From Gammaproteobacteria bacterium (lineage in GTDB: Bacteria > Pseudomonadota > Gammaproteobacteria > Steroidobacterales > Steroidobacteraceae), in NCBI GenBank assembly GCA_021323735.1, contig JAJPKM010000036.1, positions 124,001 to 188,000 on the forward strand: a DNA stretch of 64,000 bases. The letters are read 5' to 3'. Made by a program: the position numbers and the translations under genes. Under the pieces are notes generated by a model. That model was not told the origin of the DNA and searched no databases. It saw only the letters and a program-made list of their open reading frames with translations. Shown here in pieces: positions 45,241 through 47,151 of the stretch (positions are counted from its first letter, which is position 1; every line of letters starts with the position of its first letter).

Positions 45241-46107
45241 TTAGGCGGTTGCCATCAAACCTTTGAGCTTGCTGATGGCATTGGATTCCACCTGCCGCAC
45301 GCGCTCCGCCGATATGCCGTATTCATCGGCCAGTTCGTGCAGCGTGGCCTTCTCATCGTTCATCCAGCGGCGCTTCAAAATGCTGCGGCTGCGCTCATCG
45401 AGCTTTTCGAGCGCGATGCTCAGGCGGTCGGTCGAATCTTCCTCCCACTCGGCGCGCTCCACTTCCACCGCGGGATCGGCATTACTGGCCGGCAGGTACA
45501 TGGCCGGCGAGTAAGTCTCTTCCTCGTCGCTTTCCGGTGTCGGATCGAAGGACATGTCGCGTGCCGACAGGCGCTGCTCCATTTCCCGCACGTCAGCCAC
45601 ATCGACACCCAGATCGCGGGCCACCGCAGCCGTTTCAGCTTCCGACAGCCAGGCCAGATTCTTCTTCATCTTGCGCAGGTTGAAGAACAGTTTGCGCTGC
45701 GATTTGGTGGTAGCCACCTTGACCAAGCGCCAATTGCGCAGCACGTACTCGTGGATCTCGGCGCGGATCCAATGCACCGCGAACGAGACCAGGTGCACCC
45801 CCACCGTGGGATCGAAGCGCTTCACCGCCTTCATGAGCCCGACATTGCCCTCCTGCACCAGGTCGCCCATGGGCAGGCCATAACCTAGGTAACCTCGCGC
45901 GATATGTACGACGAATCGCAGGTGCGAGAGTACGAGTTGCCGGGCCGCATCCAAATCGGCCTCGGACCGAAACCTGACCGCCAGGGCGACCTCGTCCTCC
46001 TTCGTAAGAACGGGGATCTGCGACACGCGGTCGATATAGGAATCCAGGCTCCCAACGGGGCCTGCGAATATCATTCCTGTCTGTTTGGCGACGAGAGCAG
46101 CAGTCAT
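45241..46107 (-). CDS. rpoH: RNA polymerase heat-shock sigma factor (sigma-32)
   Basis: 288 residues. Region 2 is [20 protein letters not shown] and the following -10-reading helix [21 protein letters not shown]. The RpoH box appears as [11 protein letters not shown]. Region 4 is the [23 protein letters not shown]. It directs RNA polymerase to heat-shock promoters. It lies downstream of ftsX on the same strand, the usual ftsYEX-rpoH order. A CIRCE element lies 49 bases before its start, so HrcA control is likely. Confidence 0.97.
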
Positions 46108-46155
46108 TTAATGCCTACCTCCGAACGAAATCAGCGTCGAATCCATGTGGCAATA

Positions 46156-46182
46156 ATAGCACTCTTGGGGGTCGAGTGCTAA
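46156..46182 (-). promoter_or_regulatory. CIRCE element (HrcA operator) upstream of rpoH
   Basis: Read on the minus strand: TTAGCACTC (46182-46174), nine bases, GAGTGCTAT (46164-46156). This is the consensus TTAGCACTC-N9-GAGTGCTAA with one mismatch in 18 arm positions. It sits 49 bases upstream of the rpoH start codon, between ftsX and rpoH. HrcA binding here would put the heat-shock sigma factor under the HrcA repressor. hrcA itself is not in the window. Confidence 0.88.
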
Positions 46183-46230
46183 CGCCGGCGCCGGCCTGAG
46201 GCACTCGGCTTATTATTTAAAAACATATAC

Positions 46231-47151
46231 TTATGACGGTTCGATGGCTCGTATATGTCGCGTCGCAGCAAGCCAGGAACCGACCCAAGAAAGACCCGCT
46301 GCCATCATTAGTACACCAAACCCGGGCACAAGTTTCAGTCCCTGGAGCCGAAAGTCGCTGCCGTACAAGAAGGCCAGCTGCGCCACCGGGCGGGCCAGTA
46401 CCACCGATGCGAGAGCGACCAGGAGGAGTGCCAGCAAACCGCCTCCCAAGCCGTACCACATGCCGCTATAAAGAAACGGCCGGCGGGCAAACCCATCGGA
46501 GGCTCCGACCAACTTCATGACCTCGATTTCCGCGCGGCGGTTGGAAATGTCGAGACGGATCGTGTTGCTGACGATGAGCACGATGCCGACCCCGAGCAAG
46601 GCACCGGTGAGCAAGACCACGCGGCGCAGCAATTCCAGAATGGCGCGCAGCCGTTTCACCCATTCGGTGTCGATCTGCACCGTCTGTACATCGCTCAATG
46701 CCGCGATGGCAGTTTTCAAGGTATCGGTGCCCTGCGGCGTGCTTGCCGCCAACGTCGGCGTGATCACCAGCGTATCGGGCAGGGGATTCTCACTCAATGC
46801 ATCCAACGCCTGACCGAAGCCTGAGTCCTTGCGAAATTCCGCGAGCGCTTGATCCGCCGTAATGAGACGTACCGCGGCAACATCGCCGCGTGCATTGAGC
46901 TGCTTGATCAGGGCCTGCACTCGCGTGGCGCTCGCCCTCTTGTCCATGTAGACCGACAAGTCGTAGGCCTCGTTCCAGCCGCCGGTGGCGATGCGCGCAT
47001 TCTGCAGCAGCAGCGTCAGGAACAACGGCAGCGCCAGCGCCACGGCGATCACGCCCATGGTCATCAATGTTGCAAATGGCTGGCGCACGATGCGGCCGAG
47101 CGAGCCTACCAACACCTGGGCATGGCGCGCAAAGTAGGTGTTGACGCTCAC
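46231..47151 (-). CDS. ftsX: Cell-division ABC transporter permease FtsX
   Basis: 306 residues from GTG 47151, overlapping ftsE's stop. Four membrane helices: one near the N-terminus ([21 protein letters not shown]), a periplasmic domain of about 115 residues, then three C-terminal helices. The periplasmic domain has [20 protein letters not shown], typical of FtsX. With FtsE it activates peptidoglycan amidases through EnvC. Confidence 0.96.

Follow-up and report, generated by a model that had tools for sequence, protein, structure and literature searches.

The window, by which we mean the whole 64-kb stretch of gammaproteobacterial DNA that was analysed, carries the sigma-32 gene rpoH on its minus strand, with ftsE and ftsX upstream of it in the same ftsE-ftsX-rpoH order as in E. 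coli. The assigned genes and the elements that lie between ftsX and rpoH are as follows.

45241 to 46107, minus strand: rpoH (sigma-32), 288 aa; TIGR02392, 405 bits (cut-off 323)
46118 to 46122, minus strand: GGAGG, ribosome-binding site of rpoH, assigned from the sequence
46146, minus strand: predicted transcription start of the sigma70-type promoter, give or take 2 nt, placed from the position of the -10
46153 to 46158, minus strand: -10-like hexamer TATTAT, its first three bases being the end of the CIRCE, at 18-nt spacing; consensus scan
46156 to 46182, minus strand: predicted CIRCE (HrcA operator), TTAGCACTC-N9-GAGTGCTAT; sequence, one mismatch, sole match in the window
46171 to 46198, minus strand: place of the relatives' sigmaE promoter, degenerate here, with CAGGCCG for GGAACTT and TCGAC for TCnnA; matrix score
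46177 to 46182, minus strand: -35-like hexamer TTAGCA, made by the left arm of the CIRCE; consensus scan
46231 to 47151, minus strand: ftsX, upstream of rpoH; TIGR00439
47148 to 47813, minus strand: ftsE; TIGR02673

Read on the minus strand, positions 46182-46156 are TTAGCACTC-GACCCCCAA-GAGTGCTAT, which differs at one base from the CIRCE consensus TTAGCACTC-N9-GAGTGCTAA. An earlier note on this DNA had reported a one-mismatch CIRCE directly upstream of rpoH, and our reading confirms it. The close spacing that the note described also stands, with a correction: we count 48 nt, not 49, between the repeat and the rpoH start codon at 46107. Across the entire window this is the single match to CIRCE at three or fewer mismatches, where 0.02 would be expected. 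Another CIRCE-like half-site is found at 46200-46206, 17 nt farther upstream (GGCACTC on the plus strand, hence GAGTGCC of the right-arm type on the minus strand); it could be a chance match or an extra contact for HrcA.

The note had made its proposal depend on the presence of hrcA, and the gene is indeed encoded in the source genome. Its product scores 222 bits against PF01628, above the cut-off, and 343 bits against TIGR00331 (cut-off 197), and it is followed by grpE (locus L004). Searching the whole genome at three or fewer mismatches returned two CIRCE places, the one-mismatch site at rpoH and a two-mismatch site 46 nt before groES in groES-groEL, so that the search for further CIRCE sites that the note had called for did turn up groESL. 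Because a reversed control pattern also finds one place in the genome at this threshold, the case for the groES site draws on where it lies in addition to how well it matches. The same whole-genome search placed no CIRCE at hrcA itself. With an assembly of 58 contigs at 96% completeness, a further site could have been missed. The genome also encodes RpoE (TIGR02939, 305 bits, above the cut-off). A search of the source genome for sigma-32 promoters before rpoH, hrcA and groES gave best matches with 3-4 mismatches; since some 0.6 matches at four or fewer are expected in every 250 nt, we call no such promoter there.

We then asked how far the arrangement extends, beginning with species genomes, from which we took the best 80 of 584 candidates for an RpoH gene. 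Their labels include Steroidobacteraceae, Woeseiaceae, Nevskiaceae and Thioalkalivibrio, among others, and a few look misassigned. One (L047) has no upstream sequence and was excluded. All 79 remaining relatives among these best 80 of 584 have a CIRCE before rpoH, perfect in 55, with one mismatch in 18 and with two in 6. We took 50 of the 79 for an hrcA search and found the gene in 44, in genomes that are nearly all metagenome-assembled by title and whose completeness is not given. The nearest relative among the matches listed (L007), whose RpoH is 94% identical to that of the window, keeps the repeat with two mismatches and keeps the -10, and its spacer has diverged.

For a broader view, we searched 140 gammaproteobacterial genomes, roughly one per family, for rpoH and hrcA. 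Ten had no RpoH match at E 1e-60 and were left out. In the remaining 130, a CIRCE with three or fewer mismatches precedes rpoH in 90 of the 98 genomes with hrcA, compared to 5 of the 32 genomes lacking it, an association with a Fisher P of 5e-16 that takes account of shared ancestry only through the sampling of about one genome per family. Counted by region rather than by genome (131 regions in 130 genomes), the figures are 90/99 and 5/32. When the same regions were read backwards, every one was at least four mismatches away from CIRCE. A CIRCE at one mismatch or fewer was present somewhere in 103 of the 140 genomes, and a control pattern at this threshold in none of the 140. That the site is conserved, and that most genomes without hrcA lack it, supports control of rpoH by HrcA. 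The earlier note had placed rpoH under the HrcA repressor and thereby joined the two heat-shock systems in one hierarchy; the class-wide counts lend that proposal their support, with repression itself being something that we infer.

The exceptions run in both directions, with 8 of the 98 hrcA-bearing genomes lacking the site and 5 of the 32 hrcA-less genomes (G014, G065, G081, G111 and G118) carrying it. In G014, G065, G111 and G118 we looked for the DNA-binding domain of HrcA and obtained sub-threshold matches only; before groES, G118 carries a further CIRCE, with one mismatch. In these five genomes, either hrcA was missed, or it was recently lost, or another protein reads the site. Seven of the ten genomes left out do have hrcA (G026, G035, G066, G079, G080, G083 and G100); HrcA may be their only heat-shock regulator, or the missing RpoH may reflect gaps in the assemblies. 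Genome G030 carries a pair of rpoH genes (L143 and L151), one preceded by a CIRCE with a single mismatch and the other by none, its best match having eight; by sequence, they would make a natural pair for comparing two kinds of control.

A separate set drawn from the phylum contained 22 further gammaproteobacterial rpoH regions, with hrcA-bearing and hrcA-less genomes not separated, and 3 of these have a CIRCE at two or fewer mismatches. From the other classes of the phylum we took one rpoH region from each of 42 of 90 genomes; a single region reached CIRCE at three or fewer mismatches and one more did so at four. These two CIRCE-like repeats belong to G170 (L318, three mismatches) and G140 (L317, four mismatches). 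Taken together, the class, phylum-drawn and other-class counts tie the feature to lineages that bear hrcA and show that it is not general.

The earlier note, correct in putting a CIRCE before rpoH, had missed that the operator overlaps a predicted core promoter and that relatives carry a sigmaE-type promoter. By sequence, the CIRCE lies between the -35 and the -10 of a putative sigma70-type rpoH promoter, which in the window matches the consensus at 9 of 12 positions with 18-nt spacing and has a predicted rather than a mapped start. The arrangement recurs among the 95 rpoH sites of the class sample. At the -35 place, 85 of them have TTAGCA or TTGGCA, and a TAnnnT that begins inside the right arm of the CIRCE is found in 83, compared to 4 of 27 sites before groES. 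An A is also enriched 7 and 8 nt after the -10 (40/95 and 46/95 sites).

The arms of the CIRCE are nearly invariant in the class sites, and the flanks and most of the spacer vary. Within this pattern the two sides are not alike. On the left flank there is no mirror extension, an A occupying the mirrored position in 18 of 95 sites. The left arm drifts toward the TTGGCA type, with a G in 28 of these sites, a change that the mirrored base of the right arm shows in 2. Such asymmetry of arms and flanks would be unexpected for a pure operator or a hairpin, and points to an operator laid over a directional promoter. As a comparison we read 30 groES regions, which gave 27 CIRCE sites; taken together, these have a -10-like stretch that ends at the first base of the CIRCE. 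Across these regions (L217-L246), the CIRCE comes right after a -10-like TATnAT, and many also have a CTTGAC-like -35. From these sequences, one and the same operator appears to serve in two ways, with a different register at groES than at rpoH.

In most relatives, the same operator also overlaps an element of another kind. GGAAC is found at one fixed distance before the CIRCE, exactly in 44 of 95 class sites and with at most one mismatch in 64 of 95, as well as in 72 of the 79 relatives (from the best 80 of 584 RpoH candidates) at the latter threshold. Testing the register of this sigmaE -35, we found 62 of 95 sites at the true register and 0-3 at shifts of 2-12 nt taken in even steps. At 16-17 nt from the place of GGAAC there is a TCnnA, in 71 of 95 class sites and in 71 of the 79 relatives (again from the best 80 of 584). 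The TC of this motif is the end of the CIRCE left arm and the remainder is the first bases of the spacer, which leaves the final A as the sole base free of CIRCE; it occurs in 59 of the 64 sites that have GGAAC, compared to 12 of the 31 that lack it. We take GGAACTT-N16-TCnnA to be the promoter type of sigmaE (RpoE), and the relatives and class sites have both of its hallmarks, GGAAC and TCnnA, a classification made on sequence alone. In its exact form, the composite pattern occurs once each in 98 of 369 class genomes, with no match to the control, and is missing from the other 271. We read 30 of the 98 sites, and all lie before rpoH; TAnnnT is present in 30 and TCnnA in 29, and the distance to the RpoH match is 27-126 nt in 29 sites and 309 nt in one. 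Cultured relatives that bear the full composite include Steroidobacter agaridevorans (L022) and Thioalkalivibrio sp. XN8 (L052).

This element is not recognizable in the window. A sigmaE weight matrix trained on 62 CIRCE-bearing rpoH promoter sites gave the corresponding register a score of -10.5, compared to 14.9 in the nearest listed relative; the median of 174 sites is 15.7. Scanning 400 nt of the window for a sigmaE promoter gave a best score of 9.6, below the 11.8 that marks the 95th percentile of shuffles. Judging from these scores, the window seems to have kept the operator and the sigma70-type element and to have lost the sigmaE element.

We also considered the idea that every lineage without a CIRCE had kept the sigmaE promoter, and the counts argue against it. 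Among rpoH regions lacking a CIRCE, a strict sigmaE promoter occurs in 1 of 9 from genomes with hrcA and 1 of 27 from genomes without. By the weight matrix, 6 of the 36 such regions score above the 95th percentile of shuffles, compared to an expectation of about 2, and promoters like P3 of E. coli are thus not general there.

We consider it very probable that the predicted HrcA operator across the putative rpoH core promoter is functional, that HrcA represses rpoH through it, and that in most relatives the sigmaE input is gated as well. The mechanism that we propose for rpoH, namely binding by HrcA, repression and a signal from GroEL, is modeled on HrcA elsewhere. In Caulobacter, the available text of one study reports that HrcA activity at the groESL CIRCE depends on GroESL (PMC8119881). 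At normal temperature, GroEL/GroES would keep HrcA active, and HrcA would sit on the CIRCE between the -35 and the -10, blocking RNA polymerase. Once GroEL is occupied by unfolded protein, HrcA would become inactive and groESL and rpoH would be released together, and the sigma-32 so released would drive the wider heat-shock regulon. In most relatives, though apparently not in the genome of the window, the operator would also cover the -10 of the sigmaE-type promoter, and in those bearing the composite HrcA would be a gate for envelope-stress input to rpoH as well.

The main competitor to a functional repressor site, to which we give a minority share of the probability, holds that HrcA does bind at rpoH and has a minor effect there, since the level of sigma-32 would be set mainly by translation and protein stability and the CIRCE would trim a basal level. 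In E. coli, sigma-32 is controlled mostly after transcription, which favors this account, as does the possibility of read-through into rpoH from the upstream ftsEX genes; a scan of 46050-46350 on the minus strand gave no terminator-like site. However, arms that stay near-perfect in 90 of 98 hrcA-bearing genomes, taken at about one per family, suggest a sizeable effect on fitness. The predicted rpoH leader of the window also has no unusual fold (z 0.99) and no match in Rfam, so that an RNA thermometer is not evident in this leader sequence. It is very unlikely that the repeat is a chance or decayed one with no function in the source genome. Its one mismatch, and a sigmaE part that can no longer be recognized in the window, would fit decay, but a window of this size should hold 0.02 matches by chance, the genome has kept hrcA and a second CIRCE at groESL, and its nearest listed relative retains both the repeat, at two mismatches, and the -10.

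Less likely still is a structure in RNA or in transcription, rather than a DNA operator, as the reason for the inverted repeat. The arms of a CIRCE can by nature pair, so that pairing potential alone would be compatible with such a role, but the predicted sigma70-type start lies downstream and leaves the repeat outside the transcript from that promoter. Moreover, changes across the 95 class sites mostly break pairs or turn them into wobble pairs and do not compensate one another, and on these grounds we reject the view that the repeat works through RNA structure. Pair 7/21, for example, is broken in 10 sites, and Watson-Crick changes that alter both bases are rare, with a C-G in 2 sites at pair 1/27 and a G-C in 1 site at pair 3/25.

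Heat-shock control is usually described as a choice between alternatives, positive through sigma-32 as in E. coli or negative through HrcA as in Bacillus. A repressor site on the promoter of the sigma factor, found in most of the sampled families that keep hrcA, makes the two systems appear wired in series. We lean, by a narrow balance, toward a joint reading for the HrcA-bearing Gammaproteobacteria as a whole, according to which one operator laid over the sigmaE and sigma70 promoters of rpoH gates both, this arrangement is ancestral, P3 of E. coli is a remnant of it, and the window has lost the sigmaE half. A GroEL signal passed through HrcA would then gate the envelope-stress and the housekeeping inputs to sigma-32, and P3 would have remained in E. 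coli after hrcA and the CIRCE were lost. If the site works as we read it, the scheme of E. coli may be derived, having lost a transcriptional gate, and the joining and parting of both systems becomes directly testable. The material for such tests is a single operator and its regulator, a pair of overlapping promoters, and lineages that in nature lack one or another of these parts.

How does the locus compare with known systems? Upstream of E. coli rpoH, which was outside the training set, the matrix picks TGAACTT-N16-TCTGAT with a score of 15.2, compared to 14.0 for the 99th percentile of shuffled no-CIRCE regions; this is presumably the sigmaE-dependent promoter P3. E. coli differs in having no CIRCE before rpoH (best match, eight mismatches) and no hrcA, a gene that the earlier note had rightly called missing and that did not appear among the control matches of our hrcA profile search. 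Relative to P3, the window shows the reverse combination, having a CIRCE and lacking the sigmaE elements.

The groESL operons of other bacteria offer a second comparison. Bacillus groESL is controlled by HrcA and CIRCE, with the same consensus and regulator family as here. The same is true of Caulobacter groESL, as far as the available text describes it (PMC8119881). The difference is that the target at our locus is a sigma factor gene and not a chaperonin gene. Within the class itself, the -10 at groES lies just before the CIRCE (27 sites taken together), whereas at rpoH the CIRCE occupies the space between -35 and -10.

The closest precedent is in Geobacter sulfurreducens, for which a CIRCE has been predicted upstream of rpoH at -51 to the translation start (Rodionov et al. 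2004, PMC545781, Table 8). The operator, the gene and the approximate distance are alike, and groESL is also a target there (PMC545781). However, G. sulfurreducens is not a gammaproteobacterium, it is the one species of those studied with a CIRCE at rpoH, and its hrcA-grpE-dnaKJ genes have a CIRCE as well; the accessible part of that report describes neither a promoter overlap nor a sigmaE element at the rpoH site (PMC545781). Two other sources, in the portions available, report no CIRCE at rpoH (PMC10696704) or, for a betaproteobacterium, tabulate hrcA and rpoH and draw no link between them (PMC3135505). Neither the class-wide rule nor a CIRCE overlapping a sigmaE promoter appeared in the titles and abstract openings searched, a scope that leaves out most subscription literature, including Permina and Gelfand 2003, the likeliest place for a gamma-proteobacterial mention. 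Within the literature searched, and in the parts of it available, a CIRCE at rpoH thus has its precedent in Geobacter sulfurreducens, and the class-wide rule and the composite promoter are apparently new.
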